This document shows positions 5,536 through 31,700 of a DNA stretch of 64,000 nucleotides, in pieces. How positions within the stretch are numbered: the stretch's first letter is position 1; every line of letters starts with the position of its first letter. The position numbers and the translations under genes were made by a program. Source of the stretch: Flavobacteriia bacterium (lineage in GTDB: Bacteria; Bacteroidota; Bacteroidia; Flavobacteriales_D; Crocinitomicaceae); assembly GCA_009924735.1 (NCBI GenBank), contig RFQZ01000009.1, positions 1-64,000 of the forward strand. The letters run 5' to 3'. The notes below the pieces were generated by a model, which ran no database searches, was not told the origin of the DNA, and saw nothing but the letters and a program-made list of their open reading frames with translations.

Positions 5536-5574
5536 ATTTAAAATTAACCTAACAATATATATAATCTGTGCGTG

Positions 5575-5603
5575 TTGACTTTCCTTGGTTTTTAGTACAT
5601 TCG
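5575..5603 (+). promoter_or_regulatory. Putative Bacteroidota promoter of the giant gene: TTG (5575-5577), 18-bp spacer, TACATTCG (5596-5603)
   Basis: Resembles TTG-N17-20-TAnnTTTG; start codon at 5616 lies 12 nt downstream of the -7 box. Confidence 0.4.
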
Positions 5604-5615
5604 CACAAGAAGATT

Positions 5616-8600
5616 ATGCGTATTAAAAGCCTACTTTTTCTTGTTGTTCTGCTTACTTTTGGTTTTGCCTTCTCGCAAGTCGTCCCGGCTTTTAATGCTG
5701 TTCCCGCGGCCAATGGAAACAACACCATTGTTGTGTGTCAAGGCCAAACGGTTTTGTATACCAATGCATCTACCGGAACGAATAACCAAACCAATTACAA
5801 CTGGACATTTCAGGGTGGGAACCCGAACAATTCCAATCAAGTAGGTCCTCACAGTGTTACCTACAATAACGCCGGAAATTATACCACAACATTAAATCTT
5901 GGCAACGGAAATTCCACCCAGGTAAACGTGAACGTTGTTGCGAATAATTTTAATCCTACCCTAACGATTCCAAATGGAGGTCAGTTTTCCACAACCACGT
6001 ACAATGGGATTACCATTTTTAGAAAGTGTGGGGCAGGAAACAATGGGAACTTTACGTTTACGGATCCAAATTTAGCAACCTACCCAGCGGGAACGTCCTT
6101 TAATTATTCTTGGGGAGATGGAACCAGCGGAACAGGAAGTCCATCATCAATTAGCCATAACTATGTAGGTCAAGGGTATTATAACCTAACTTATTCCGTT
6201 ACCTTTCCTTCAGGATGTGTCTTTACGGTGAATTATCAGGTGTACGTAGGAAGCAATCCGCCTGCCATCACTTTATCTGGCTCAGGCAGTTCCTCGTGTT
6301 TGCCAAATCCTTATTCGTTTACATTAGGGACGCCTACCACCCCTCCTGCAGGGACTGTATTCCAGGTAATTTACAACGATGGAACCCCCACTACTTTTAT
6401 AAACAGCTTGTCGCCAAATCCTTTGACCATTAACCATGTATTTAGTCAAACCTCCTGTGGTATTAATTCAACCATTCAAAGCACAACCTACACCAATTCT
6501 TATGCAATTCAGGTCGTAGCTACCAACGGATGCAATCCACAAGGGACTTTTGCGGCAATTGGACCGATTTCGGCCGGGGGATCAGTAAACGCGGGTATAA
6601 CTACCAATCCAAATACAAATGTGATTTGTGTGAATTCTCCTATCACTTTTCAAGATGCTTCTAATCATGGAACCAATGTATACGGAGGTTCATGTGATTC
6701 CCTTTTTGGGAGGTATTGGACCATTTCTCCAAATGCTGGTTTTACTACCGCAGGAACATTGGGTTCGAGTAATGGTTTTCTTCCAAATACAGCTGCAGGG
6801 TATGATTGGTTATCTTGGACCAATGGATCGCAAAACTTGCCAGTAACGTGGACGGTTCCGGGGAATTATCAAGTTACCCTTCATCTTGGGAACGATTGCG
6901 GATTAGATTCTGTAGTGTACAATATTTGTGTTGTGGCAGCTACCGTTGCAAACTTCTCCTTACCTGTTGCTACTGCATGTGCGCCTGCACAAATTTCTCC
7001 CATCAATTCCTCAAGTACACCTGGATGTAATTTAACCAACGTATTCAGTTGGGCGGTGACATCTACAAATCCTCAAAATTGCAATTTTAATGGTGGAGCC
7101 TCCGTAACGCCTGCAAATTCAGCACTAGCCAATCCTACCTTTAATTTTAATGGTCCAGGTGTTTACAACATCCAACTCACGCTCGGATTAAACAATAATG
7201 TACTTGGCGCTTCTTGTGCTCAAACAACGTTCTCACAACAAATAACCATCAAAGGACCACCGCAGTTTTCGATAAATCCGGTAGGGCCTATCTGTGCAGG
7301 GGGTAGTATATCGCCTACCATCACATTGAACAATTGTTACGGATTGTCACTCGCTAGCTATGCTTGGAACTTTAATCCCAACAATAATATTCCTGCGGGT
7401 AGCATTCCAGCACCGCTAACCGCAAATACATTAAATCCTGGAAGCATAACCTATCCAAGCTCGGTGGGCAGTCCCTTTCCGTTTCAACTTACAGCAACCA
7501 ATGAATGCGGTCCCACCACGGTAACGCAAAACATAACCGTTCAAAATCCCGTTGTGGTTACCACAGGGTCTTACGGTCCCTTTTGTATCAATTCACCGGT
7601 GCCACTTTCTGGTACGGTTACCGGAGGTGTGTTAAATGGTAATTGGACAGCGAATGTTGCCGGAGGCTCTTTTAGTCCTGTAGGGGGTGTTGCAAATTCT
7701 GGAGCCCTCGTTTCAACCTACACACCACCCGCCGGATATTCAGGGAACATTGTTTTCACCCTTACTTCCAATGCGCCCCTTGCTCCTTGTCAAGTAGTAA
7801 CTGCACAAACCACTGTGACTTTTAATCAGGTTGCGACCGTAAATGCTGGCGCTTATCCGAACGGCGTTTGTATGAACCAACCTTTAACCCTGAATGGAAC
7901 CATAGGAGGGGCAGCTTCCAGTGCCACATGGACAACCAATTCCGGGGGTACTTTTTCCAATCCAAACGCTTTGAATTCCACATGGACGCCGCCTCTTGGA
8001 TTTACGGGTACAGCAACGTTGACCTTAACTACCAATGATCCTGCAGGACCCTGTAACGCAGCGGTCGCTACGACCAATGTTACGGTAAAACCTCTGCCTG
8101 TTGCTACTTCTCCCGTTACGGTTGGTCCCATTTGTTCAGGAGCAAATGGTGTATTCGCCTTAAGTTCTACGCTTACGCCTACCAATTACAATTGGGCGAT
8201 TACTTCGGTGCCTCCAGGAGTCGTTGCAACGGCAAGTGGAACGGTAAATTCAAATACCAATTCAGGAACCTTAACCACACCAATCACCAACAACACAAAC
8301 GCACCCCAAACGTTGACGTATGTTTTTACGCCTGTTTCCAATGGGTGTCCTGGTACGCCTTCGTCTACCCAAATTACCATTCAACCTGTAGCCACAATTT
8401 CTGCACTGAGCAACTTAACTGTTTGTCCGGGTGCCACCCTTACACCAACCTCATTTGTTTCCAATCCAAACGGCGCAACGTTTACATGGACCAATAACAA
8501 CGCGAACATTGGTCTTGCTTTAAGCGGCAGTGGGCAAATCACTCCTTGGACGGCACCGGTTAATAATTCCCTAGCGATTATTACAGGGACAGTTTCGGTT

Positions 8601-11600
8601 TCACCGACCTTTAATGCTTGTCCGGGCACCAACGCAACCTTTACGGTAAACATCAGTCAGACGCCATCCATTACCAATGCAAATTTAGCCCAAAGCATTT
8701 GTTCGGGTGCAAACACTACCGCTGTGACTTGGACTTCTGCCCTTGCAACAACGACCTATGCTTGGACGGGTGTAGCAAGTGCCGGAACCGTGACAGGTTT
8801 TACAGCAAGTGGAAATGGTGTGTTGCCATCAATGGCGATTGTGAACAGTGGAAATTCGCCTCAAACGGTTACGTACACGGTGACGCCCACGAGAAATGGA
8901 TGTCCAGGAACGCCAATTACCTATGTCATTACGATTAATCCTACTCCAATTTTAACATTATCTGCAAACCAAACCGTTTGTGGTGGAAGTCCGACCGCGG
9001 TAACCGGTTTTTCAAATTCTGTGGCTGGGGGTAGTTTTACCTTTGCTTTACAAAATCCAGCTTCGGTTCCAGTGACCATTACAGGTAATCCCGTCAATGG
9101 AACAGGTCAAATACCAGCGAGTACGATTAACAATGCCGGGGTAAATCCTTACACCTTGAATTACCTCATCACGCCAACTGCAGCGAATTGCCCAGGTGCT
9201 ACAGGTGTATTTTCAATTACCATAAATCCAGCGCCGGTAACCAATTTTTCAATTGCAAATCAATCCATTTGTACCGGAGGAAATACGGCCAGCGTAAACT
9301 TAAGCAGTGCAACACCTGGTGTGAGTTTTTCTTGGAGTGTTCAAGGAGCAATTCCAGCAGGGTTGCAAAACTTTAATCCTATCTCTGGCGCAAGCACCAT
9401 TCCTGTCTATTCCAATCTTATAAATTCAACCATTTCCCCCATTGTAATAACCATTATGGCGCAAGCTACGACAACGGGGCCATCCCAATGTCTTGGCTCC
9501 ATGATGCCTTACACCATTACCGTAAATCCTACCCCTACGGCCGTAGCGTCTTTTGTAAGCAACGATACCATTTGTTCCAATTCACAGATAAACATTGCAT
9601 TAACTTCAAATACACCCAATACCAATTTCACTTGGACAGCGGTGAATGGCAATGGGATAACAGGTGGGGCAGCCTCTTTAAATCCGGGGGTTTCAATTAC
9701 ACAAACTTTGGTAAATGCAACGGTGAATTTTGGAACGGTAACCTACACCATTACCCCCGTTGTGGCGGGCGCTTGTCCCGGTATTCCCATACAAGTGGTG
9801 GCGTATGTGAATCCTGTTTCTGTTGTGACGGGTTTAAATCCGTTGACTTTTTGTCCTGGCAGCATTGCAGTCGTGCCTCCGTTTACAAGTTCACCTTTAG
9901 GGGCTTCGTTTTCCTGGACGAATTCGAATGCGGTAATTGGATTGGCAGTTTCCGGTAATGGAAACATTCAAAACTTCACAGCCGGCGCCAACAATACGAA
10001 CCTTGCCATATCGGGAAATGTGGTGGTTACGCCTACCTTTAACGGTTGTCCAGGTACACCTTCAAATTTCAACATCACAATCAACCCAACACCAACGGTT
10101 ACAAATCCAGTGGTCACCCAAACCATTTGTTCTGGCGCTCCGACGCTTGGCGTTGTTTGGCAAAGTGGTGTGGCTGGAACGACCTATGCTTGGTCTGTAG
10201 CTTCAAACGGAAACAATGTAAGTGGGTTTCTTCAAAATGGTTCGGGTAACTTACCCATTCAAGCGAGCATCGTTAATTCAGGGAACAGCATTCAAAATGT
10301 TGTTTATACGGTGGTTCCAACTGCAAATGGATGTGTAGGTATTTCAAGTTCTTACACCATTCAAGTGAATCCCATTCCGGTTTTGACATTGTCAACGAAC
10401 CAAAATATTTGCAGTGGTACGGCAACCTTAGCAACGCAATTCACCAACAGTGTAGCAGGAGGGGGGTATGCTTGGAGCGTTACGAATGGGGCTCAAATTC
10501 CAAATACGGTAACGGGATTTGTTAACAGTGGTTCCAATCAGATTCCCGTGATGACCCTGAACAATGTTGGTACGGCCAACCAAGTGATAGCCTATTCAGT
10601 AACCCCGAATGCAAACGGTTGTAACGGTCAACCTGGTAGTTTTCAAGTAACTGTTTTTCCGAGCCCGACTTCGGCATTTTCCATTGCTCCACAAACGATT
10701 TGTAGCCAAGGAAATACGCAGGCTGTTACGATTACATCAACCACAGCCAATGCCACTTTCGCTTGGTCTGCGCCCAATCCTTTGCCAAATGGACTCACAA
10801 ATTTTAATCCTACTTCAGGAAATACTTCTACCATTCCCTCCTTTCAAAATTTAACGAACGCGACCAATCTTCCAATCTCTGTTGTACTTACAGCCATCGC
10901 AACTACATCAGGAAATGCCAATTGCCCTGGTCCACCAGCAAACTACACGATCATCATAAATCCAACCGTAATCGCTCAGTCCAATTTCGTGAGCAATGAT
11001 ACGATCTGCAGTGGAACGCAAATATCCATAGGTTTAACCTCCACGACTCCGAATGCACAATTTACTTGGACGGTGAATCAAGGAAATGGAATCAGTGGAG
11101 CTTCGCCGTCGGCCGTTTCCTCTGCTACCATTCAACAAACGTTAACAAACAATACAGGTGCTATTGGACAAGTAACTTACCTTGTCACCCCTCAGGTTGG
11201 TGCATGTTTAGGAACCCCTATTCAAGTTATTGCCTACGTAAAACCTGTAGCAACCCTTTCCCCTTTAAACAATTTAGCTGCTTGTCCGGGGGCTCCTCTC
11301 ACACCAAGCGTGTTTACATCCATTCCTGCGCAATCGACTTATTCATGGACAAATTCCAATGTTCAAGTTGGATTGTTGGCCTCAGGAATCGGAAACATTC
11401 CTACATGGAATGCACCTATAAACAATGGAGTTACAACACTCACTTCTGTTGTAAATGTGACCCCAAGCTATCAAGGTTGTAATGGTACGCCATCAAGTTT
11501 TACGATAACAGTCTACCCAACGCCGTCCATAACCACTTTACCATTGTCACAAACGGTGTGCGAGGGTCAACCAACGACACCGATTACTTTTACGAGTTCA

Positions 11601-14600
11601 TTGCCTGGTTCGAGCATTGCATGGGCATTTGGCAATGCAGGGCCTTCCTTGACAACTTTTAACGCTGGAAATGGCCAAAACCCATTGCCTTCGATGACTG
11701 TTTCTCATTCAGGAAATACAGCACAAAACATCATTTATCTGGTCCAAGCTACCAGTGCGAACAACTGTGTTGGTGTGAATGTAAATTACACCATTATCGT
11801 AAATCCGAACCCCATCGTAACGTCGGTTCAAGACCAAACCTTATGTTCTGGACAATCCACTGTGTTGACTTCCTACCAAAACTCGGTACAAGGTGGAGGG
11901 TTTACTTGGAGTTTGTTAAATGCAAACATTCCAAATGCGGTTACTGGGTATGTTTCTCCATCGGGTACGGGTCAAATACCTGCGGCACAAATCAGTAATT
12001 CTGGAACACAACCATACATCTTAAACTACCTTGTCACGCCAAACGCTTCAGGTTGCAATGGAATCCCTGATACCTTTTCAATTACTGTAATGCCTGCACC
12101 CACGGTTGTTTTCGCGGGAGGGAATACCCAAACGGTCTGTAGTGGGTTGATGTCAAACCCTGTTTCAATGAGTTCAACCACCCCTAATGTGATTTGGAGT
12201 TGGAATGTCACGAATGTGAATGGGGTAGTGGGAGCCAATCCGATCAGTGGAAATGGAGCTACGGTTCCTGCTTTTACATTAACTCAAAATACCAATACGT
12301 CTCAAAATGTTGTGATAACCGCGCAAGCAAGTACAACCAATGGGGGGTGTCAAGGAACTTTGGCGACGTATACCATCGTGGTAAATCCAATTCCTGTGGC
12401 AACCTTAACTTTAACGCCAGGAAACGTAGTCTGTTCCAATGGTACCGTTAATTTGAACTTGTCATCAAACGTGAATGGTTCGACTTTCAGTTGGACGTCA
12501 AATGCAACCGCAGGAATTACAGGAAATACAAATGCAAGTGGAGCCGTCATCACAAATACCTTGGTGAACTCAACAAGCAATGTTGGAACGGTTACCTATT
12601 CCATTACCCCAACGGCTTCAAATTGTCCAGGACTTCCCATTTCTCAAGTTGTTTCCGTTAACCCTGTTCCAATCGTAACTGGCCTTAGTAATCTAGCTGT
12701 TTGTCCAGGATCCTCAATTTCACCTGCAGCTTTCCAAAGTGTACCCGCAGGATCCACTTTTAGTTGGAGTAATTCCAATACAAACATTGGTTTGGTAGCT
12801 TCAGGTCTGTCGAACATTACTTCTTGGCAAGCGCCAGTTAACAATGGCAATTCGAGTCAAGTGGGTACGATAACGGTTACACCGACCTTCGGAAATGGAT
12901 GCGTAGGTACGCCAAGTTCATTTACGGTCACAGTTTACCCAACCCCACAAATCACTACCGTTCCATTGTCTCAAACCTTGTGTGAGAACGTTGCAAGTCA
13001 GGCAGTTAATTTCACATCAAACATTCCAAACAGTACCATAAATTGGTCCTTTGCTAATGCAGGAGCTGGATTGAGTGGGCATCCAACAGGGCAAGGTGTA
13101 AATCCGCTGCCCACGATTACTTTTTCCAATGCTTTAAGTACGACGCAAACGGCACAGTATACGGTAACAGCAACGTCCGCAAATCAATGTGTAGGAACGC
13201 CTGCAACTTATACTTTCACAGTGAATCCAATTCCTGTACTTACAGCACCAGGTGTTCAAACGGTCTGTAGCGGTCAGCCCACCACATCCGTAGCCTTTTT
13301 GGCAGATGTAATAGGTTCAGTGTATACGTGGACTGCCATTTCACCACCTGCGGGACTCTCAGGGTTTACGGCAAATGGCGCATCAAATTTAGGATCGATG
13401 ACGATAAGCAATGCCACTGCGAATCCATTGCAATTGGTATATTCTGTTACGCCATCCGCTGCGGGTTGTTCGGGCCTTAGTGGAAATTTCACCTTCACAG
13501 TTAATCCATCCCCAACGGTGTTGTTTTCTATTGGAAATCAAAGTCTTTGCTCGGGTAGTTTAACCAATCCAGTGAATTTAACGACCTCTACGAACAATGC
13601 AACCATTTCTTGGACAGTAGCTGTGCCTGGGGGAATTTTAGGACTGAATACTTTGTCGGGTAACAATTCCATACCTGCCTACAATTTAACCAACAATACC
13701 GCAGGAAATTTAACGGCCACGTTTACGGCAATTGCATCTACCGCTGGAAATACAGTTTGTCCTGGAACCCCTGCGATTTATACCCTAACCATAAGTCCTC
13801 AAAATGGAATCTCTGTTGTGGCCGTTGACAGCAGTTTATGTTCAGGAAGTTCGGTGCAAATCCAAATTTCTTCGAATACAGCCGGGTTAACTTATTCTAC
13901 CGTAGCAACCCCATCTCAAGGTGTTACCGGCGCATCCAATGTAAATGGCACCCAGATTTCTCAGGTTTTAGTGAACAATACCAATTCACAGGGCAATGTG
14001 ACTTACACCGTAACAGCATCGGCACCGCCAGGAAGTACCTGTCCCAGTCAAACGGTTTCCCTACCGATTACCGTCGAACCAGTTCCCACCGTTCAATATT
14101 CCATTGCAAACCAATCCCTATGTTCAGGAAATACCTCGCAAATTGTAAATTTAACAACCAATGTTGCAGGTGCTTCCATCGTATGGAATGCGAATGTTCC
14201 AGTTGGTATTATAGGGATGCAAGCATCGGGAAGTAATAGCATTCCAGGAATTGTTTTGAATAATGCCACAAATGCTTCTGGTGTTATTACCATCAATGCC
14301 TTAGCAACCGTTCAAGGATGTCCTGGCGTATCTAACCCATACCAAATAACTGTTTTCCCAAATCCGACCTTGACAATTAATCCACCAAACGATACAATCT
14401 GCAGCAATACAAATATTGCGGCATCATTCAGTTCCAATGTAGCAAATACAAATTATGCTTGGACCATTTCATCGAATCCGAACATAACCGGCGCGTCAAA
14501 TGGAAGTGGAAACACAATCAATCAGGTACTTAACAATGTTTCAGCGCAAATCCAATCCATTACATACAATGTGAATTCAACAGGTCCAGGGCCTAATGGT

Positions 14601-17600
14601 GGATGTCCGGGCCAGGTGGGTGCGTTAAATGTCTGGGTAAATCCTGTGGCATCGGTTACTTTCTCTTTGTTAAATCAAACCCTTTGTTCGGGATCAAGCA
14701 GTCAGGCTGTTTCCATTATCAGCCCAACTCCAAATGCACAAATATCTTGGACAGCAAGCATTCCTGCAGGAATTACCGGTACGGTAGCAAATGGTTTGAA
14801 TACAATTCCCGCACAGAATCTGGTAAACAATACAAACGGTCCATTAACCATTGTTTACACTACAAATGTAAGTACACCCGCTGGGAATTGTGCGGGACAA
14901 ATTTCTACGTATTCCATCACGGTGAATCCTATTCCCGTACTATCCTTTTCCGGTAACAACCAAGTGTTGTGCTCCGGGAATTCAACGGTGGCAATCAATC
15001 TTTTATCCAATCTATCTGCAGCTGCAGCGGCTGGCGTAACTTATTCTTGGTCATCAACCCAACCGAATGGAATGAGCGGGGTTTCAACATCCGGATTAAA
15101 TGCGATACCTGTTCAAACCCTTGTGAATGCAAGCTCAGCGCCAATAACCATTTCCTACATTGGTTCCATCACCTACACCAACAATGCTTTTGCTTGTCAG
15201 GGCAGCAATGCAACGTATCAGGTTACCGTAAATCCACTTCCCGTCGTAACTGCTACGGTTGCAAGTCCGACCATCTGTTCTGGAGATACGGCCATTGTTT
15301 GTTTCACATCTCCAGTGGTTGGGACTAATTTTGTTTTTACAGGAATCGCTAGCAATGGAATAACGGGGGTACAAAACGGAAATGGCAATTGTTTGAGTCA
15401 AATCTTGGTAAACGCGTTGTTAACCCAAGGAAATGCTACATATTCTGTGGTCGGAACTGCGAATGGTTGTACAGGCACACCTGTAACAGCAACGGTATTA
15501 ATCAATCCAAATCCTACAGTTACAGCGATGAATAATGCGGTCGTTTGTCCAGGACAAGCCATTCCGAATCAAACCTTTGCATCTACACCTGCAGGAGCAA
15601 CTTTTAGTTGGGTTAATTCAAATCCATCCATTGGACTCAATGCATCGGGGAATGGGGCGATTCCTGGTTGGGTTGCGCCGGTAAATTCAACCGGAGGATC
15701 TTTTGTTGGAAACATTTCCGTAAATGCGACCTTAAATGGTTGTGTCGGGTCAAACGTTTCCTTTTCAGTCACTGTTAGCCCAACACCAACTTTAACCGTT
15801 AATCCGCAATCCATTGTTATTTGTTCTGGAAGCAATGCCGTAATCAATTGTAATTCGAATGTTTCCAATGCCACCCTAAATTGGGTTGCTGCTGCGGTAA
15901 ATACCAATGGCGCAAGCAATGGAAACGGGAATGCAGTGAATGGAAATTTTTTAATCAGTCAAGCCCTAAGCACCTCAATAAACGCTGTCGGAAATGTCAC
16001 TTACACGATTACGCCTCAAGCAAATGGATGCGTGGGAAGTCCGGTTCAAGTTCCTGTTACAGTTAACCCCGTTCCCGTCGCTAACATCAATCCATTGGGT
16101 CAAACCATTTGCAGTGGAAATCCAACACTCCTGATCATCTCTGGAAACATACCGGGCATAAATTACGGATGGACCATAAGTAACAATCAAAACATTACAG
16201 GGGCCTCCGCCGGTTCAGGAGACACGATCGCTCAAGTGCTAACAAGTTCTTCAACAGGCGCTCAAACCTTAACTTACAGCGTTACGCCGTCCTTAAATGG
16301 ATGCAATGGAAACATCGTAAATGCTGTGGTAACGGTAAGCCCAACACCGGTGCTTACGCCTGTTGTCAATGGTGCAACCATATGCAGTGGCGCAAGTACG
16401 AACATTGTTTTAAACTCAAATGTATTAAACACTACGTATGCCTATACAGCCAATTCAAACAATGGCATCATCGGAGCGTCAAGTGGAACAACAACGCCAA
16501 TCGTTCAGCAATTGACCAATCCGAATTTATCTCCAGGTCAGGTGATTTACAACATAATCCCATCAGCCAATGCGTGCAATGGAGCACCGGTTTCGGTAAC
16601 AATCACTGTAAACCCAGTGGCGTCGGTAATTCCAAGCCAAAATACAATCGTAATTTGCAGTGGTCAAAGTGCAAATGTTCAGTTTTTAAGCAATGCGCCA
16701 GGCGCAACATTTAACTGGAGTGTTAGCCAAAATCCACAAGTTTCTGGGCAAGCCGCTGGAAGTGGAAATGCCATTTCTCAGGTATTAACGAATAACACGT
16801 TTGCGGTGCAGAATTTCAATTATTTGGTAGTCCCTGTTTTTGGGGTTTGTCCCGGGAATCAATTCACCATTCCCGTAACAGTCAATCCACTTCCACAAAT
16901 AGTTGCAGGACAATTGTTGAATACCTGTGCAAGTACAGCTCCGTTTAATTTGACGGGTTATTCGCCGGCCGGAGGAACTTGGTCTGGAACAGGAATTACG
17001 AATGGGCAATTGGGAACTTTTAGTCCACAAGTTTCGGGAATCGGACAGTTTCAGTTGACTTACAGTTATACAAATCCAATAACAGGTTGCATCAACTCGG
17101 GGATACGAACGGTTGTGGTAAATGCGCTGCCGGTTCCTCTTTTCACGATGGATACCTTAAAATGCACGAATACAACGGTAAGCATTGTAAACAATTCGAC
17201 AGGGGCAAGCACGTATAACTGGAATTTTGGAAATGGTGCGACCTCAACCCAAGTGAATCCATTGTATCAATATCCCCAAGGAGGAAATTATACAGTTTGG
17301 TTGACAGCTACATCTGCACAAGGATGCGTAGATTCAACATCACACGCCATACAAATCATTACCACGCCAACGCCGTCCTATGTTCCTTCTGTTTATTCTG
17401 GATGTGGTCCTTTGAGTGTGAATTTCAACAATACAACCACAGGGAGTTTCATCAATTCTTATTTTTGGAATTTTGGATTCCCAGCCAATGGACCCTTTTC
17501 AAATGCGCAAAATCCAGGAACCATTGTGTTTCCGGCGCCTTGGGTACAAGATACAAACTATGTCATTTCTTTATCAGCTACAAATCAGTGCGGAACGGCT

Positions 17601-19616
17601 AATTTCTTAGATACCATATTAGTACATCCCCTTCCGATTGCAGGTTTTGCAACTACGGTGAATACAGGTTGTTCTCCTTTGTCTGTTGGGTTCTTGAATA
17701 CATCAGCGGGAAGTCCTACGAATTATATCTGGAATTTTGGGGATGGAAGTTTTAGTACGCAAAACAGTCCCACTCATGTTTTTGTATACGGTCCAAACGA
17801 TACCATTTTTAATGTGAGTTTGATAGCCATTAACGCTTGTGGTTCTGATACCGCTTATTATCCAATTCATGTTTTTCCGAATACAGTCACCTCTTTCTTT
17901 AATACAACCCCTACTTCTGGATGTGCACCATTGAATGTTCAGTTTACAAATTTCTCGGTAGGTGCAAACAACTACTATTGGAATTTTGGCGACGGACAAG
18001 TAACCAATGCAACAAGTCCATCACATTTATATACCTCCTCAGGTACGTTCATCGCCCAGTTGATTGTAGATAATGGATGTTCGTTTGATACCTCTCAAAT
18101 TACCATTACTGTTTTGGCTAAACCAATGGTTTCGTTTACCGTAGCAAACGACACTCTTTGTACAAGTCAAGTCTTTTCATTCACAAATACGTCTTCTCAA
18201 TTGTCAAATGTTGTATGGAATTTTGGGAATGGAGCAACCAGCAATGTTTACAGTCCTTCATACACGTATCAAAATGGAGGTAGTTATATTGTTTCCATGA
18301 TTGGAACCTCGGCATCGAATGGTTGTGTAGATACTGCTTACCAATTTATACAAGCCATCCCAAGTCCAAATGTTGTTTATGATACCAATGTCTACGAAGG
18401 TTGTGTGAGTTTCTCTGCTTCTTTCAATGAGACTTCAGGTACGGCAAGCAGTGCGGTTTGGGACTATGGTGATGGAAACATAGGCATCAGTCCAAGTTCT
18501 TCTCATTATTATACAACAGCTGGGACCTATTACCCACAAGTAGTGGCGCAAAATGCTTTTGGATGTACCGACACCGCTGATTTTACAGTCGTGGTTCATC
18601 CAAAACCTTTAAGTGATTTCGACATTCCAATTAAAACATCTTGTACCGTACCGTTTAATGTCATCACCACCAATAATTCACAAGGGGCATTGATTTACAA
18701 CTGGAATTTTGGAAATGGAACCACGTCTAATCAGTTTTCTCCTGTAGGCACATACTTGCAGTCTGGATCGTATCAAATTGTCTTAATGGTCTACAACCAA
18801 TTCGGGTGCGGGGATACTTCGGTGCAAGCAGTTATTGTTCATCCCATTCCAATTGCTGGATTTACGCCTGATACGACCATAGGGTGTGAGGACTTAACTG
18901 TTGGTTTTACGAATAATTCGGTCAATTCAAACACCTACCTTTGGAACTTTGGGGATGGTACGTCCATACAAGCTCCGAACCCTATTCATACATATATGGA
19001 TCCTGGTTTTTACACCGTTACCTTGATTGCAACCAATATTTTCGGATGTACGGACACCTTGATTGATCCAAACTTGATACAGGTCTTACAGCGTCCCCAA
19101 GCGGCCTTTACAGTTTCTCCATCGATACTATATACAGAAGATGCTTTCGTGAATTTAACCAACCTGGCTACAAATTACCAGACGGGAGAATATGACTTTG
19201 GAAATGGGATTGTTTACAATATTAATACTGAAATTTATAACTATGGAACTGCGGATTCTGGTGATTATGTGATTACGCAAGTAGTCTATAATCAGTTTGG
19301 TTGTTCAGATACTGCGTACGCATATATTCATATAAATCTTTCTCCCACATTGTATGTTCCCAATGCATTTACACCAGATTTAGATGGGGAAAATGATGGT
19401 TGGATTCCTGTTGCTACGGGTGTAGGTGAAATTGAAGTAAGTGTTTTCAACCGATGGGGAGAGGAAATTTTTAATACCAAAGACCTTTCTGTCAAATGGG
19501 ATGGGACGTACCAAGGAAAAGATTGTCCGGTAGGCGTGTATTCCTGGAAAATAATCGCAAGAGACATCAACGCAGAGTTGATTGTGAAATCAGGTCACAT
19601 TGTATTGTTGAGGTAA
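5616..19616 (+). CDS. Giant T9SS type-B secreted adhesin: signal peptide, N-terminal PKD-type region, 31 PKD-like modules, about 9 PKD domains, CHU_C gliding-motility C-terminal domain
   Basis: Signal peptide MRIKSLLFLVVLLTFGFAFSQ; repeats of xICSG...W...VTYxVTPxxNGCxGxP...ITVNPxP; PKD motifs YLWNFGDGTS...HTYMDPGFYTVTLIATN; C-terminus NAFTPDLDGENDGWIP...VFNRWGEEIFNT...WDGTYQGKDCPVGVYSWKI. ORF track opens at 5568, but ATG 5616 gives the signal peptide. Confidence 0.95.
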   Translation: MRIKSLLFLVVLLTFGFAFSQVVPAFNAVPAANGNNTIVVCQGQTVLYTNASTGTNNQTNYNWTFQGGNPNNSNQVGPHSVTYNNAGNYTTTLNLGNGNSTQVNVNVVANNFNPTLTIPNGGQFSTTTYNGITIFRKCGAGNNGNFTFTDPNLATYPAGTSFNYSWGDGTSGTGSPSSISHNYVGQGYYNLTYSVTFPSGCVFTVNYQVYVGSNPPAITLSGSGSSSCLPNPYSFTLGTPTTPPAGTVFQVIYNDGTPTTFINSLSPNPLTINHVFSQTSCGINSTIQSTTYTNSYAIQVVATNGCNPQGTFAAIGPISAGGSVNAGITTNPNTNVICVNSPITFQDASNHGTNVYGGSCDSLFGRYWTISPNAGFTTAGTLGSSNGFLPNTAAGYDWLSWTNGSQNLPVTWTVPGNYQVTLHLGNDCGLDSVVYNICVVAATVANFSLPVATACAPAQISPINSSSTPGCNLTNVFSWAVTSTNPQNCNFNGGASVTPANSALANPTFNFNGPGVYNIQLTLGLNNNVLGASCAQTTFSQQITIKGPPQFSINPVGPICAGGSISPTITLNNCYGLSLASYAWNFNPNNNIPAGSIPAPLTANTLNPGSITYPSSVGSPFPFQLTATNECGPTTVTQNITVQNPVVVTTGSYGPFCINSPVPLSGTVTGGVLNGNWTANVAGGSFSPVGGVANSGALVSTYTPPAGYSGNIVFTLTSNAPLAPCQVVTAQTTVTFNQVATVNAGAYPNGVCMNQPLTLNGTIGGAASSATWTTNSGGTFSNPNALNSTWTPPLGFTGTATLTLTTNDPAGPCNAAVATTNVTVKPLPVATSPVTVGPICSGANGVFALSSTLTPTNYNWAITSVPPGVVATASGTVNSNTNSGTLTTPITNNTNAPQTLTYVFTPVSNGCPGTPSSTQITIQPVATISALSNLTVCPGATLTPTSFVSNPNGATFTWTNNNANIGLALSGSGQITPWTAPVNNSLAIITGTVSVSPTFNACPGTNATFTVNISQTPSITNANLAQSICSGANTTAVTWTSALATTTYAWTGVASAGTVTGFTASGNGVLPSMAIVNSGNSPQTVTYTVTPTRNGCPGTPITYVITINPTPILTLSANQTVCGGSPTAVTGFSNSVAGGSFTFALQNPASVPVTITGNPVNGTGQIPASTINNAGVNPYTLNYLITPTAANCPGATGVFSITINPAPVTNFSIANQSICTGGNTASVNLSSATPGVSFSWSVQGAIPAGLQNFNPISGASTIPVYSNLINSTISPIVITIMAQATTTGPSQCLGSMMPYTITVNPTPTAVASFVSNDTICSNSQINIALTSNTPNTNFTWTAVNGNGITGGAASLNPGVSITQTLVNATVNFGTVTYTITPVVAGACPGIPIQVVAYVNPVSVVTGLNPLTFCPGSIAVVPPFTSSPLGASFSWTNSNAVIGLAVSGNGNIQNFTAGANNTNLAISGNVVVTPTFNGCPGTPSNFNITINPTPTVTNPVVTQTICSGAPTLGVVWQSGVAGTTYAWSVASNGNNVSGFLQNGSGNLPIQASIVNSGNSIQNVVYTVVPTANGCVGISSSYTIQVNPIPVLTLSTNQNICSGTATLATQFTNSVAGGGYAWSVTNGAQIPNTVTGFVNSGSNQIPVMTLNNVGTANQVIAYSVTPNANGCNGQPGSFQVTVFPSPTSAFSIAPQTICSQGNTQAVTITSTTANATFAWSAPNPLPNGLTNFNPTSGNTSTIPSFQNLTNATNLPISVVLTAIATTSGNANCPGPPANYTIIINPTVIAQSNFVSNDTICSGTQISIGLTSTTPNAQFTWTVNQGNGISGASPSAVSSATIQQTLTNNTGAIGQVTYLVTPQVGACLGTPIQVIAYVKPVATLSPLNNLAACPGAPLTPSVFTSIPAQSTYSWTNSNVQVGLLASGIGNIPTWNAPINNGVTTLTSVVNVTPSYQGCNGTPSSFTITVYPTPSITTLPLSQTVCEGQPTTPITFTSSLPGSSIAWAFGNAGPSLTTFNAGNGQNPLPSMTVSHSGNTAQNIIYLVQATSANNCVGVNVNYTIIVNPNPIVTSVQDQTLCSGQSTVLTSYQNSVQGGGFTWSLLNANIPNAVTGYVSPSGTGQIPAAQISNSGTQPYILNYLVTPNASGCNGIPDTFSITVMPAPTVVFAGGNTQTVCSGLMSNPVSMSSTTPNVIWSWNVTNVNGVVGANPISGNGATVPAFTLTQNTNTSQNVVITAQASTTNGGCQGTLATYTIVVNPIPVATLTLTPGNVVCSNGTVNLNLSSNVNGSTFSWTSNATAGITGNTNASGAVITNTLVNSTSNVGTVTYSITPTASNCPGLPISQVVSVNPVPIVTGLSNLAVCPGSSISPAAFQSVPAGSTFSWSNSNTNIGLVASGLSNITSWQAPVNNGNSSQVGTITVTPTFGNGCVGTPSSFTVTVYPTPQITTVPLSQTLCENVASQAVNFTSNIPNSTINWSFANAGAGLSGHPTGQGVNPLPTITFSNALSTTQTAQYTVTATSANQCVGTPATYTFTVNPIPVLTAPGVQTVCSGQPTTSVAFLADVIGSVYTWTAISPPAGLSGFTANGASNLGSMTISNATANPLQLVYSVTPSAAGCSGLSGNFTFTVNPSPTVLFSIGNQSLCSGSLTNPVNLTTSTNNATISWTVAVPGGILGLNTLSGNNSIPAYNLTNNTAGNLTATFTAIASTAGNTVCPGTPAIYTLTISPQNGISVVAVDSSLCSGSSVQIQISSNTAGLTYSTVATPSQGVTGASNVNGTQISQVLVNNTNSQGNVTYTVTASAPPGSTCPSQTVSLPITVEPVPTVQYSIANQSLCSGNTSQIVNLTTNVAGASIVWNANVPVGIIGMQASGSNSIPGIVLNNATNASGVITINALATVQGCPGVSNPYQITVFPNPTLTINPPNDTICSNTNIAASFSSNVANTNYAWTISSNPNITGASNGSGNTINQVLNNVSAQIQSITYNVNSTGPGPNGGCPGQVGALNVWVNPVASVTFSLLNQTLCSGSSSQAVSIISPTPNAQISWTASIPAGITGTVANGLNTIPAQNLVNNTNGPLTIVYTTNVSTPAGNCAGQISTYSITVNPIPVLSFSGNNQVLCSGNSTVAINLLSNLSAAAAAGVTYSWSSTQPNGMSGVSTSGLNAIPVQTLVNASSAPITISYIGSITYTNNAFACQGSNATYQVTVNPLPVVTATVASPTICSGDTAIVCFTSPVVGTNFVFTGIASNGITGVQNGNGNCLSQILVNALLTQGNATYSVVGTANGCTGTPVTATVLINPNPTVTAMNNAVVCPGQAIPNQTFASTPAGATFSWVNSNPSIGLNASGNGAIPGWVAPVNSTGGSFVGNISVNATLNGCVGSNVSFSVTVSPTPTLTVNPQSIVICSGSNAVINCNSNVSNATLNWVAAAVNTNGASNGNGNAVNGNFLISQALSTSINAVGNVTYTITPQANGCVGSPVQVPVTVNPVPVANINPLGQTICSGNPTLLIISGNIPGINYGWTISNNQNITGASAGSGDTIAQVLTSSSTGAQTLTYSVTPSLNGCNGNIVNAVVTVSPTPVLTPVVNGATICSGASTNIVLNSNVLNTTYAYTANSNNGIIGASSGTTTPIVQQLTNPNLSPGQVIYNIIPSANACNGAPVSVTITVNPVASVIPSQNTIVICSGQSANVQFLSNAPGATFNWSVSQNPQVSGQAAGSGNAISQVLTNNTFAVQNFNYLVVPVFGVCPGNQFTIPVTVNPLPQIVAGQLLNTCASTAPFNLTGYSPAGGTWSGTGITNGQLGTFSPQVSGIGQFQLTYSYTNPITGCINSGIRTVVVNALPVPLFTMDTLKCTNTTVSIVNNSTGASTYNWNFGNGATSTQVNPLYQYPQGGNYTVWLTATSAQGCVDSTSHAIQIITTPTPSYVPSVYSGCGPLSVNFNNTTTGSFINSYFWNFGFPANGPFSNAQNPGTIVFPAPWVQDTNYVISLSATNQCGTANFLDTILVHPLPIAGFATTVNTGCSPLSVGFLNTSAGSPTNYIWNFGDGSFSTQNSPTHVFVYGPNDTIFNVSLIAINACGSDTAYYPIHVFPNTVTSFFNTTPTSGCAPLNVQFTNFSVGANNYYWNFGDGQVTNATSPSHLYTSSGTFIAQLIVDNGCSFDTSQITITVLAKPMVSFTVANDTLCTSQVFSFTNTSSQLSNVVWNFGNGATSNVYSPSYTYQNGGSYIVSMIGTSASNGCVDTAYQFIQAIPSPNVVYDTNVYEGCVSFSASFNETSGTASSAVWDYGDGNIGISPSSSHYYTTAGTYYPQVVAQNAFGCTDTADFTVVVHPKPLSDFDIPIKTSCTVPFNVITTNNSQGALIYNWNFGNGTTSNQFSPVGTYLQSGSYQIVLMVYNQFGCGDTSVQAVIVHPIPIAGFTPDTTIGCEDLTVGFTNNSVNSNTYLWNFGDGTSIQAPNPIHTYMDPGFYTVTLIATNIFGCTDTLIDPNLIQVLQRPQAAFTVSPSILYTEDAFVNLTNLATNYQTGEYDFGNGIVYNINTEIYNYGTADSGDYVITQVVYNQFGCSDTAYAYIHINLSPTLYVPNAFTPDLDGENDGWIPVATGVGEIEVSVFNRWGEEIFNTKDLSVKWDGTYQGKDCPVGVYSWKIIARDINAELIVKSGHIVLLR
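8133..16930 (+). repeat. 31 tandem PKD-like modules (270-306 bp each), organised in part as a five-module higher-order repeat
   Basis: Module-leading Cys codons read at 8133, 8424, 8700, 8979, 9270, 9573, 9852, 10128, 10410, 10701, 11007, 11283, 11559, 11844, 12138, 12432, 12702, 12981, 13266, 13548, 13839, 14121, 14400, 14685, 14970, 15276, 15546, 15822, 16110, 16383, 16656. Confidence 0.9.
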
Positions 19617-22508: not shown

Positions 22509-23537
22509 TTATCCGATCTTATTTTTTTTCTTACCGTAAAGGTGCATGGATTTAAAGAAAAGCTCAACAGAACCAAATCCTTTGTTTGCACTGCTTAACC
22601 TAGATGCTGTAACATCCAATGCAACGCCAAATCTAAAATGTGACACCTTGTAATTTAGGTTTATGCTGATTGCGTCTTTCCAACGGTAATAAGCACCGTA
22701 GTTGATGGATTTTGATTTTAAAATGTTCGTAATGTCAGAACCATTGGAGAGGATGTTCTCAAACATAACCCCCATGATAACGTTGCTGTTAGGGCCATTT
22801 TTGAAGGCCATGAATTGAGGTTGTACCCGTAAATCTCTGCGGCTTGTACTTAAATCAGCTCCCAAATTAACAACCATTTGCATGAACATTTTATCACTCG
22901 ATTCAGAGAAATTCATTTTCGGCTTATTGATGTGGTTAATGGCCAATCCACCATAATATTTGGACTTATTTCGGTTGGTGTATTGGTAATGCATACCCGT
23001 GTTTACATTAAAAGAAGCATATGAACTTCGGCTCAAACTTGAATTGATAAAGGTTGGATCTCCATAGGTCCAGTTAAACGAACTCCCGTTCCAATCTGAT
23101 TCCCAAGTTGGAAGCGTAGGGTCATAACTTTGTAAAATTAAACCCGGAGCAGCGCCAATGGTCAATTTTGCAAATTGATTCATTTGAATAGAGTAGTTGA
23201 TGGGAATGGCAATGTCTGTGGACATTAACTTGCTTTCACCCGTTTGCTCGTTAACGAGGTTTAACCCAATTCCGAAATGGTTTTTGCTCATAGGTCCGTC
23301 GGAAATTTTAAATTCCGTAACCAAAGTATTTGAACGCAATGGAGTTCCTGTTAGGGTAAGGTGTTGCATTTTGAAACTTGTACAAAATGACATGTCTTCT
23401 GCGCCAGTAGCTGTCGTCGCAACATTAAACAAACTCGGTGTTTGATTGAAAACACTTGAGTTAAATGCGTATTGAGAAAAAGCAATATTTCCCAAAATGA
23501 CTGTAAATAGCGTGATTAGTGTATATTTTATTTTCAT
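22509..23537 (-). CDS. Type IX secretion system membrane protein, PorP/SprF family
   Basis: Signal peptide, then YAFNSSVFNQTPSLFNVATTATG...; beta-barrel-like, NHFGIGLNLVNEQTGESKLMSTDIAIPINYSI; operon with an upstream CHU_C protein. Confidence 0.85.
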   Translation of the reverse strand: MKIKYTLITLFTVILGNIAFSQYAFNSSVFNQTPSLFNVATTATGAEDMSFCTSFKMQHLTLTGTPLRSNTLVTEFKISDGPMSKNHFGIGLNLVNEQTGESKLMSTDIAIPINYSIQMNQFAKLTIGAAPGLILQSYDPTLPTWESDWNGSSFNWTYGDPTFINSSLSRSSYASFNVNTGMHYQYTNRNKSKYYGGLAINHINKPKMNFSESSDKMFMQMVVNLGADLSTSRRDLRVQPQFMAFKNGPNSNVIMGVMFENILSNGSDITNILKSKSINYGAYYRWKDAISINLNYKVSHFRFGVALDVTASRLSSANKGFGSVELFFKSMHLYGKKKNKIG

Positions 23538-23541
23538 TTTC

Positions 23542-24486
23542 TTATCTGTAGAGGGTTACATTTCCATTCATGGCATAGGATAAGCCATTGATCAGTCTAT
23601 ATTCTAACTTAAACAAAAAGGTTCCAGGATTTAAGGGTTTTCCTTTGAATGTACCATCCCATCCCTCTTGAGGATTTGTGGTTCTAAATACCAATTGCCC
23701 ATATCGGTTGAAAATCTCGAAATTCATATTGGCAATCGCTCCACCTTCACCGTTATACCCATTGGCATAATTTGCATCGATGTCTACATTGGTAATTACC
23801 CTTAGCACATCGTTTTCACCGTCATCATTTGGCGAAAAAGCATCTGGCACACGTACCTTTAGGGAATCCCTAAATTTCACATCTACGAATACCGTATCAG
23901 ACGCAAGACATCCTTCCGGAGAGTAGTTGTTTAGGATGTAATAGGTTGCGTAAAAAGGAGATGCAATTACAGTATCGCAAGCACCTGTTACGTCGGCTAT
24001 ACAAGAAACGGTGTTAGGTACCCAGACCAAAGAATCACCAGCTACAAAACCTGTTGCGGTAATAACGGCTCCGGTTGTAATGGATCCTGCAGGATTCATT
24101 CCGCCATACATTGGGATAATTGTGTCAGGAATCACAACGCCACCAACGGTGTCTAACAATGAAATGCTAATGGATGGAACCGCTCCAACCGTTAATACTT
24201 GACTGGATGAACTTGTCGCACCCGTACCATCTGTTACGGTTAAGGTTAAGGTATACGTTCCTGCGACGTTGAAGCAAATTGCCCCAGGATTCATCCCGCT
24301 GTAAAACGAGGGAGTTCCGCTTGGAAAAGACCAGCTGGAAGAAACGACATCATTAGAAGAGGTGTTTTCTATGTCGATGCATTCGCCTTCGCAAATCACA
24401 TTATCGGATACAGAAAAACTTGCAGTAGGCTGTGCGAAAGCGAATAAATTCAAGCAAAGCACAAGGACAAAAAAAGCGTATTTCAT
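23542..24486 (-). CDS. PKD domain protein with gliding-motility-associated C-terminal (CHU_C, T9SS type B) domain
   Basis: SFSVSDNVICEGECIDIENTSSNDVVSSSWSFPSG...; C-terminus VPDAFSPNDDGENDVLRVI...FNRYGQLVFRTTNPQEGWDGTFKGKPLNPGTF. Confidence 0.92.
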   Translation of the reverse strand: MKYAFFVLVLCLNLFAFAQPTASFSVSDNVICEGECIDIENTSSNDVVSSSWSFPSGTPSFYSGMNPGAICFNVAGTYTLTLTVTDGTGATSSSSQVLTVGAVPSISISLLDTVGGVVIPDTIIPMYGGMNPAGSITTGAVITATGFVAGDSLVWVPNTVSCIADVTGACDTVIASPFYATYYILNNYSPEGCLASDTVFVDVKFRDSLKVRVPDAFSPNDDGENDVLRVITNVDIDANYANGYNGEGGAIANMNFEIFNRYGQLVFRTTNPQEGWDGTFKGKPLNPGTFLFKLEYRLINGLSYAMNGNVTLYR

Positions 24487-27898: not shown

Positions 27899-28731
27899 CC
27901 TACGTAGAAGTATCCCTCGATTTAAAGCCTTTTCAACCCTGGAATGAAATCTTTGTAAGTCACCTGGCGGAATTAGGTTTTGAGAGTTTTGTTGAAGAAA
28001 ATCCACTGCTCAAAGCGTACATATCCGTTGAAGCATTCGATGAAGAAGCGGTAAATGATTTAATTGTTGCTTGCCTTGCTGAAGCATCGTTCGCCATACA
28101 ATGGTCCTTCGTCGAAATTCCCCCTGAAAATTGGAACGAGAACTGGGAAAACAGTTTTGATCCTGTTCATGTCGGCGAGCTTTCCATTGTTGCACCGTTT
28201 CATGGGGAAGAGCATCGAAGAAACCAGGTCATAGAAATTGAACCCAAAATGTCCTTCGGGACCGGGCATCACCAAACAACTTTTCTGATGTGTCAAACCA
28301 TGCGCTCGTTGGAATTCATAGGGAAAAAAGTACTCGACATGGGTTCAGGTACAGGTATTTTAGCGATTTATGCAGAAATGCTCGGTGCAAAAAAAGTTAT
28401 GGCTGTAGACATTGAGCCATGGGCCGTGGAAAATGCAATCGAAAACATTCAACGAAACCATTGCCATTTCATCGAAGTGGGCTTAGGAGATGTAACCGTT
28501 GTTACAGATTCTGATTATGACATCGTCCTTGCAAACATCAATAAAAACGTCTTAACTCTTCACTTACCGACCTATGCATCGAAGATGATGAGCGAAGGTG
28601 ATTTGCTGTTAAGCGGGTTTTTTACAACGGACAATCAAGAACTTATAGACCTCGCAAATACGCTGGATTTCACATTACAAAATACTTATGAAAAAGAAAA
28701 TTGGTCTTGCTTGCATTTTAAGAAACGCTAA
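27892..28731 (+). CDS. prmA: Ribosomal protein L11 methyltransferase
   Basis: MSFGTGHHQTTFLMCQTM, VLDMGSGTGILAIYAEMLGA, DIVLANINKNVL. Confidence 0.96.
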   Translation: MLTYVEVSLDLKPFQPWNEIFVSHLAELGFESFVEENPLLKAYISVEAFDEEAVNDLIVACLAEASFAIQWSFVEIPPENWNENWENSFDPVHVGELSIVAPFHGEEHRRNQVIEIEPKMSFGTGHHQTTFLMCQTMRSLEFIGKKVLDMGSGTGILAIYAEMLGAKKVMAVDIEPWAVENAIENIQRNHCHFIEVGLGDVTVVTDSDYDIVLANINKNVLTLHLPTYASKMMSEGDLLLSGFFTTDNQELIDLANTLDFTLQNTYEKENWSCLHFKKR

Positions 28732-31700
28732 AATCTATTTTTTACTTTTAGGAATCGGGATGCCTTTGCTTTCATTTTCCCAAACATTCAGCAAGGAGAA
28801 AGATAAATTTATTAAGGAGATTCAACGAACCTTTACGGAACCAGATATGGAAAACAACGTTCGCGTTATTTTTCCTCAAGTGATTTCATCAACAGGGTTT
28901 TCAGAATCTACCTTTGGTAAAATGGTGGATGGGGCCAATGCCATTTTCACCGCCAAAGGAGATGCCAGATTGACTTATTATTATGTTGCCAGTTTTATAT
29001 ACCAAAACAAAAACAAATTTGACAACGACTTTAGTTCAGCTTGGGCAGGATTGGAAAAAGAATATCGTAACAAAGAAGATGAAAAATATAGCGAATTCAT
29101 GCAGTTCTCCTATGGATTGTTTCGGTATAAAGCATTGCAGAAAAACGACAATGTCCTTTGGACATACAAAGGTTCAATGGAATGGAATCTCGAGAAGAAA
29201 CCGAAAATTATTTGTACCGATGGACAGCTTTCTGGCTATTCGGTTGGATTGAAGGAAAAAGACAGTGTCTTTGTCGCCGAAACGTTTGGGGTTTTCGATT
29301 TGGAAACAAAAAAATTCGTTGGGAGAAACGGCACCATCACATGGGAGAAGGTTGGTTTTTCCAAAGCAGAAACCTTTGCTGAACTCAAAGGATACCGCGT
29401 GGATATGAACAAAGTTGTCCTAAAAGCAGATACAGTTTCCCTTACCACTCCTTATTTCAAAACACCGATTCTTGGTGTGCTTTACGACAAGGCCATAGAT
29501 GAATTGAAGGAAGGGGAAGGCGGTGCGCCATTGTTTAACTCCTTTGAAAAACGGCTCAAAATACCTGCGTTGAGGGAAGGGATGGATTATGATGGTGGTT
29601 TTTCACTTGAAGGCAATCGATTTGTTGGTAAAGGAATCGAAGGGAATCCGGCTAAATTGATTTACAAAGAAAATGGAAAACCTTTAATCGAAATTTCCGG
29701 TCTTCTTTTCACCATTGACCCTAACCAAATTTTAGCCCGACAAGCAAGGTTTAAATTGAGTTACGCAAATGGGGATTCATTGATTCAATCGGATGGAATG
29801 TATCAGTTCAATGATGTAACCAAAGAAATGACCGTTTCCCCAAACAAAAAAGGGGGCGTTGTAGTTCCGTTCATTGATTATCACTTCACAGTTACTTGCA
29901 ATGCGCCGGTACTTAAATGGATCCAAGGCACCCCATTTCCTAAGTACACTTTTGAGATGGCTACCTCGCAAGCGCAAAAAATCATCCAATTTGAATCTTT
30001 CAATTATTTCGATGAAGCTTTGTATAATAAGCTTGGGAACAGTGGAGGTGGAAATCCATTGAATCAAATTGCAAATTATTGTAAAAAAAATAACCTAACC
30101 ACCTTAACAGAAGGACAAGCCAGCAGCGCCTTGGGTACCACCATTGAATACGCAAAAACAAGGTTGTTGGAATTGGCAAGTTTGAATTTTTTAAACTACA
30201 ATACTTTTGAAAAAACCATTATGCCTTTGCCAAAGTTATATTCCTTTTCCGAAGCGAAAACAGCGGGAAAAGATTACGATAACCTTTCTTTTGTTTGTGA
30301 CCTCACCCAAAGAAAAATTACTTTTTCCGAAGAATCTTTAGCGAAGAATCCACAATTGAAATCCGAAAAAAACAAATTGGAAATTCTCAATAATCGTTAC
30401 GCAAAACAAGACTATTTTGCTTTCATCGATTTGGCGAAAAATCAAATGTTCCTAACAGGAGTTGACGAGGTGGTGCTTTCTCAGGCTCAAAAAACCTTCC
30501 TTCAACCCGATTCTACTTACATCATTGTTAAACCTAACCTAGATTTAGATTTTAAAGGGAATTTGAATTGCGGAAAGTTTGTTGGACAGGTCCAAGAAGG
30601 CTATTTTTCTTACGTTGATTTCAAGATCAAATTAAACAAACTCTCCTATGCAGGTTTGGTGGTGAATCCACTGAGAAAGGAGGATGGACAAGATCCCATT
30701 GAATTGTTAAGTTCGTTTGCAAATCTGAAGGGAGAATTACTGATTGATCAACCTACGTCGCGAGCAGGACAAAGTAAAACAAATGGTAACTATCCAAAAT
30801 TATTGGTTCCGGGTATTTCAAAAGTAGTATACAACGACCCTTCCATTGTTAAGGGTGCTTACGATTCAGCAAGGTTTTACTATCGCCTTGATCCTTTTGA
30901 ATTGGATAGCTTGGATAATTTTAATGAGCTTGCGCTTCGCTTTAATGGGTCATTGATTTCTGGAGGAATCTTTCCGCCGATTAAGGAGCCTTTGAAAATC
31001 ATGAATGACTATGCCTTTGGTTTTTCGACCGTGGCACCCGAGGGTGGTCTTGCCTTCTATGGAGATAATTCTAAATACGAAAATAAAATCATCCTTTCTC
31101 ACAATGGGCTTCAAGGTGCGGGAACCATTAACTATAATACAGCAACAGCCATTTCGCAAAAGTTGACTTTTCTACCAGATTCAACCATCGGAATTGCTAA
31201 GTTTGAAAACAAAGAGTCGATTACAGGAATCAAAGTCCCACTGGTAAAATCCGAAGCAGCGTACATTACCTTCTTACCTAAAAAACAAGTACTCAAAGCA
31301 AGTGCTTGGCGAAATGTCAATCTTCAAATGTTCAACAACCAATGTGAAATGGAGGGAACGGTCGTGTTATCCAAGAATGGTATGAATGGAAATGGAAAAT
31401 TACTCTTTCCCGATGCTACTTTGGAATCCAAGAACTTCGTCTTTACCCATGAAGATATCCATGCCGATACCTCAGCCTTTGCGTTGAAAAATCGTTTCGT
31501 AACCCAAGGCGCTGCACCCATTGCCATGGAAACAAAAGATGTAAAAGCAGACGTCTCCTTCAAAACCAGAAAAGGTGAATTCAACTCCTTTGGAACCAAA
31601 CGTATTAAGTTCCCCCCAAATCAATACTATTGTACCATGGACAAGTTTTTTTGGTACATGGACCGTTCCGATGTAGATTTTGAAAAATCAAAATCCCAGC

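Follow-up and report, generated by a model that had tools for sequence, protein, structure and literature searches.

Five-module blocks in the PKD_5-like array of a giant type IX secreted surface protein from a member of the Crocinitomicaceae, and signs of in-register recombination between them

The window analyzed here, i.e., the whole stretch of 64,000 nucleotides from contig RFQZ01000009.1 of a flavobacterial assembly assigned to the family Crocinitomicaceae, carries on its forward strand an open reading frame (ORF; positions 5568 to 19616) that encodes 4682 residues (Table 1). Translation likely starts at ATG 5616, judging from the signal-peptide-like stretch MRIKSLLFLVVLLTFGFAFSQ that follows this codon. 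The product contains 31 consecutive PKD_5-like modules, each with a pair of Cys residues. It scores above the Pfam cut-off for PKD_5 (PF19406; 597 bits, 23 scoring stretches), and its C terminus matches both the type B sorting domain TIGR04131 (43.5 bits against a cut-off of 35) and CHU_C (49.3 bits against a cut-off of 27). The protein is very probably a type B cargo of the type IX secretion system (T9SS) that resides on the cell surface and has a shaft consisting of a chain of Ig-like PKD_5 modules. Among proteins of solved structure, the relatives of its N-terminal region are limited to weak matches to collagenase PKD domains. Since no ligand-binding domain was found in this protein, the label "adhesin" attached to it in the initial annotation is a presumptive one; a long surface stalk or adhesin is the most likely assignment.

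Table 1. Features of the giant gene and of the genes downstream of it (positions in the window)
Feature	Position	Strand	Remarks
Giant type IX secreted surface protein	5616..19616	+	ORF opens at GTG 5568
N-terminal region with PKD/PKD_4 matches	5616..8081	+	
Module x0 (M01)	8082..8375	+	Single conserved PKD_5-like module ahead of the blocks
Block 1, P T L F D (M02-M06)	8376..9803	+	
Block 2, P T L F D (M07-M11)	9804..11234	+	
Block 3, P T L F D (M12-M16)	11235..12653	+	Orthologous in two genera
Block 4, P T L F D (M17-M21)	12654..14069	+	Orthologous in two genera
Fixed tail of ten modules, F D F F D P D D D D (M22-M31)	14070..16877	+	End approximate
PKD_4 domains, at least 7	16920..19340	+	Follow the tail and precede the sorting signal; limits approximate
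T9SS type B C-terminal sorting domain (TIGR04131, CHU_C)	19356..19613	+	
PorP/SprF family outer-membrane protein	22509..23537	-	PF11751, 1.2e-22
Small PKD_4 + CHU_C type B cargo	23542..24486	-	Adjoins the PorP/SprF gene

The genome encodes SprA (SprA_N, 1.4e-151), and a gene of the PorP/SprF family is located 2.9 kb downstream of the giant gene. Type B cargo proteins are known to bind PorP-like proteins (PMC9143113), and by analogy the product of this gene is a candidate anchor or shuttle for such cargo. The gliding adhesin SprB, whose partner is SprF (PMC9143113), is likewise a giant type B T9SS cargo with a PorP/SprF gene nearby. In such an arrangement, the module chain would be an exposed stalk that carries the N-terminal region at its tip and is held at the C terminus by the PorP/SprF partner. 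Further downstream, the ORFs at 28688-33367 (1559 aa) and 34017-39461 (1814 aa) have no Pfam match at an E value of 0.001. The second of these, on the forward strand, includes a 42-bp tandem repeat (36654-37346; 16.5 copies) that encodes a 14-aa unit like DPVATNDPTKTSAQ. Higher scores are obtained with periods of 84 and 126 bp, so that this repeat may have a higher-order layout, too.

The AlphaFold2 prediction for block 1, made on 47 blocks, is an all-beta chain with pLDDT of 92 and pTM of 0.59, that is, with confidently predicted modules in uncertain mutual orientation. Each module of a block has two Cys residues, and all ten of these are invariant throughout the 47 blocks, which suggests one disulfide bond in each module. 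A search of a viral structure library yielded only generic Ig-like matches. The nearest solved protein, by both sequence and fold, is GhpA of Aureispira sp. CCB-QB1 (PDB 9flp, 9flv, and others), which matches the full-length protein with an E value of 4e-18 and the block profile with 1.6e-21, in 11 stretches. Like the window's protein, GhpA is a T9SS-secreted giant with Ig-like modules of the PKD type, and a weak match is also present at the C terminus. The hooks of Aureispira are a T9SS-secreted heptamer that is used in predation (PMC11205867). GhpA forms these heptameric hooks, which act together with the type VI secretion system (T6SS). In phmmer searches, which compare sequences only, residues 1 to 838 had no match to GhpA up to an E value of 10, and VipB was not found in the window's genome. 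These data support a stalk of similar build; they do not support a grappling hook employed in T6SS-dependent predation.

Modules 2 to 21 (M02 to M21) run four times through the subtype order P-T-L-F-D. The initial annotation had recognized this order, at modules 2-6, 7-11, 12-16, and 17-21, from the sequence context of the lead Cys residues, and both pairwise identities and a module tree now confirm it. Within M02-M21, mean pairwise identity is 46.2% for modules five positions apart, 44.4% at offset 10, and 42.6% at offset 15. Nearly all other offsets give 33 to 37% (35% at offset 1); the lowest value, 27%, comes from the single pair at offset 19. When the order of the modules was permuted, the observed value of 44.57 (permutation mean, 35.92; s.d., 0.99) was not reached in any of 20,000 trials. 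Autocorrelation of the protein sequence inside the module region peaks at lags of 1426, 477, and 953 aa, and the second of these fits the period of about 475 aa that had been predicted. In the maximum-likelihood tree, the P (100/100), F (96/92), T (92/96), and D (93/90) modules each fall on one side of a branch, as do three of the four L modules (97/94), with only M19 outside. The modules therefore group by subtype and not with their neighbors, although M19 and M21 fit their own subtypes weakly. Adjacent modules in this gene are no more than 48% identical.

The measurements behind this description hold to the base pair. This applies to all lead Cys coordinates, to the spacings of 276/279/291/303/279, 276/282/291/306/276, and 276/285/294/294/270 bp in the first three units, to the unit lengths of 1428, 1431, 1419, and 1419 bp, and to the distance of 2844 bp between position 12702 and the P module at 15546. 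The spacings of the fourth unit, which had not been quoted, are 279/285/282/291/282 bp and thus drift. The motifs used to name the subtypes are strict for P (CPG in 5/5 modules) and looser than proposed for the others: QTxC is seen in 3/4 T modules, FSI in 3/4 F modules, and GGGxxW and SNDTICS in only 2/4 of the L and D modules, respectively. An additional module, M01 (lead Cys at 8133), stands ahead of the blocks and is conserved as well. Tandem Repeats Finder, which covers periods of up to 500 bp, does not list the array, whose copies have also diverged too far. With the longest exact repeat being just 20 bp, the window's gene gives no sign of present-day exchange in this strain.

Relatives were searched for in 60 near genomes and 240 genomes of the family, and the arrays of the orthologues were segmented with the module profile. 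Their common layout is x0 + (PTLFD)n + FDFFDPDDDD. Nine complete genes from two genera have n = 4 and the same ten-module tail: six in the window's genus (G000, which is the window's genome, G250, G001, G215, G236, and G233) and three in another genus of the family (G137, G142, and G159). The tails of G142 and G159 begin with a module whose nearest subtype by score is T and not F. G025 has exactly five blocks (protein of 5139 aa); in G004, at least four are present, and a fifth is cut off by the contig end. Orthologues thus differ by exactly one five-module block, in line with the expectation that copy number would change in multiples of five. The last modules of the window's array had been viewed as one more unit with a scrambled subtype order. 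This interpretation is rejected, as the region from 14070 onward is a separate tail that is conserved in complete orthologues and has no period-five peak of its own. In the tree of blocks, those numbered 3 and 4 cluster according to their position in both genera (95/91 and 100/100, respectively), except for block 3 of G233, whereas blocks 1 and 2 group partly by lineage; the P-T-L part of block 2 is the portion of the window's array that is most divergent from the relatives. Among the relatives, the four contigs of L040, L098, L099, and L100 break off within the array, in three cases close to where block 1 meets block 2, as would be expected if near-identical blocks failed to assemble there. 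A scan of genome contigs gave three loci only.

Several of these genes bear traces of exchange between blocks. Block 1 of G001, G215, and G236 is a chimera in which the P module resembles block 1 of G025 and the rest resembles block 2 of G025. Diagnostic sites in P favor block 1 by 95:11, 82:12, and 75:13 in the three genomes, respectively, and the remaining sites favor block 2 by 344:31, 266:71, and 226:91. The best breakpoint lies at nucleotides 275 to 300 of the block, i.e., at the P/T boundary, which means that the four- and five-block alleles differ by one unit joined in register. In G004, blocks 2 and 3 share 90 to 99% DNA identity over P-T-L and approximately 40 to 65% from F on. Blocks 1 to 3 of G233 contain patches of 85 to 97% amino acid identity. 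In G156, blocks 1 and 2 are 88 to 96% identical at the DNA level and are followed by a third, partial P-T-L and then by modules of another kind. In G001, G025, G004, G233, G137, G142, G159, and G156, the copies of the longest exact repeat are spaced one block apart (1413 to 1434 bp).

Taken together, the chimeric block, the homogenized tracts, the difference between four and five blocks, and the orthology of individual blocks indicate that blocks are gained, lost, and homogenized by in-register recombination between them. An old block duplication with subsequent homologous recombination in register, busiest in the N-terminal part, is the simplest account and one that we hold with high confidence. 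On this account, the stretch P-T-L-F-D was duplicated as a unit before the two genera split. Later recombination between neighboring blocks, aligned P with P and T with T and probably carried out by ordinary RecA-type enzymes, then added or removed whole five-module units and copied sequence between modules of the same subtype in successive blocks. This happened mainly among the N-terminal blocks; the C-terminal two blocks and the tail are stable. The original proposal of growth by blocks of five domains is thus upheld by the tree, the 477-aa autocorrelation, the four versus five blocks, and a junction at the equivalent point of neighboring blocks. It has to be widened to include loss and in-register homogenization, and the ten-module tail did not follow it. 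The difference between four and five blocks could be a loss or a gain. Blocks 2 to 4 pair G001 with the five-block G025, yet G001 shares the four-block junction with G215 and G236, so that transfer of alleles between lineages may be involved.

The extra block of G025 and G004 could alternatively have come from a paralogous gene of the G236p/G215p type and not from inside the array. The first blocks of G025 and G004 do group with the first block of these paralogues (100/99). However, the branches leading to the paralogues are long, and in its N-terminal region G025 shares 85% identity with the four-block G001 versus 49% with the paralogues. We consider such a donor unlikely, and the junction would be in register even so. 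It is far less probable still that modules were duplicated singly and that selection for a functional unit of five domains later made the five subtypes converge. Lengths and Cys spacings that are specific to each subtype could indeed reflect positional function, but identity at offset 1 is at background (35%, versus 46% at offset 5), relatives are set apart by an entire block at a single junction, and the same-subtype tracts are 90 to 99% identical in DNA, third codon positions included, which convergence does not produce. Finally, block numbers are most improbable as artefacts of metagenome assembly, even with the contigs of G004, G007, G252, G241, and G229 ending inside the array, as exact repeats in the window, G001, and G025 reach no more than 20 to 32 bp, which is too short to mislead assembly, and the four-block form recurs in nine complete genes from two genera.

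Other unit sizes are found in related arrays. A paralogue in the window's genome (L050, contig G000:C20; ORF of 3624 aa) has a PKD_5 array with a period of nine, and the arrays of G003, G030, and G015 also peak at nine modules. In G015, modules spaced nine apart are 99 to 100% identical, with units of two and four modules elsewhere; loci L046 and L047 (G015:C10; ORF of 9016 aa) contain 66 modules, near-identical ones being found at offsets nine, four, and two. Locus L101 (G192:C6) has, at residues 901 to 2106 of its ORF, a seven-module unit of 1947 bp with an exact repeat of 1484 bp, which is either a very recent duplication or an assembly copy. A period of five as a general rule for PKD_5 arrays is therefore rejected by the peaks at nine and seven and by the two- and four-module units in part of G015. 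Five is thus a historical feature of the window's gene and is not special to the fold.

In the 35 arrays that were found with the window's query, identity of 70% or higher is seen in 2 of 964 pairs of adjacent modules, although near-identical neighbors may be under-represented there because short-read assemblies break at such places. Neighbors that are more than 62% identical occur in G002 only, whereas partners at offsets 2, 4, 5, 7, and 9 reach 91 to 100% identity. Arrays from other families show no such difference between adjacent and more distant modules; 11 of 213 neighboring pairs have identities of at least 70%, with values of up to 80%, so that divergence of neighbors is rejected as a general rule for PKD_5 outside the family.

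Growth by several domains at a time inside an array has been described for many proteins, with similarity peaks at a fixed offset of seven modules in nebulin, five in cadherin, and four in fibronectin-3 (Bjorklund et al. 2006, PMC1553488). The window's array similarly peaks at a fixed offset and its multiples. Unlike nebulin, it is bacterial and has no exons, and its orthologues differ by exactly one unit with a mapped in-register junction. The A-band super-repeats of titin, made of Ig-like modules with position-specific subtypes, have undergone recursive duplication and are discussed as matching the periodicity of the thick filament (PMC10665226). The window's protein shares the Ig-like modules, the position-specific subtypes, and the recursive duplication of super-repeats; it differs in its unit of five PKD_5 modules and in having no known partner comparable to the thick filament. 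Periscope proteins vary in length through near-identical neighbors (PMC8201768). They resemble the present case in being stalks on bacterial surfaces that change in length when their repeats recombine; in the orthologues described here, however, neighbors are no more than about 49% identical, and high identity is seen only five modules apart. Block-wise domain growth is already known from nebulin and titin, and the window's gene is a well-resolved bacterial example. No earlier account of bacterial five-domain blocks was found in the open-licence literature.

The gene and its relatives are a clear bacterial example of block-wise growth that can be followed in closely related genomes. A single gene shows gain or loss of a unit with a mapped junction, a fresh duplication, and stable old blocks, and its conversion tracts stop near module edges. 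Near-identical neighboring domains are thought to carry a misfolding cost. Tentatively, the higher-order layout could allow a bacterial stalk to vary in length by recombination while its neighboring domains are kept divergent and this cost is avoided, which would make it a neighbor-divergent kind of Periscope protein. The layout also points to a way in which the length of a large surface protein could change while similar domains are not placed side by side.
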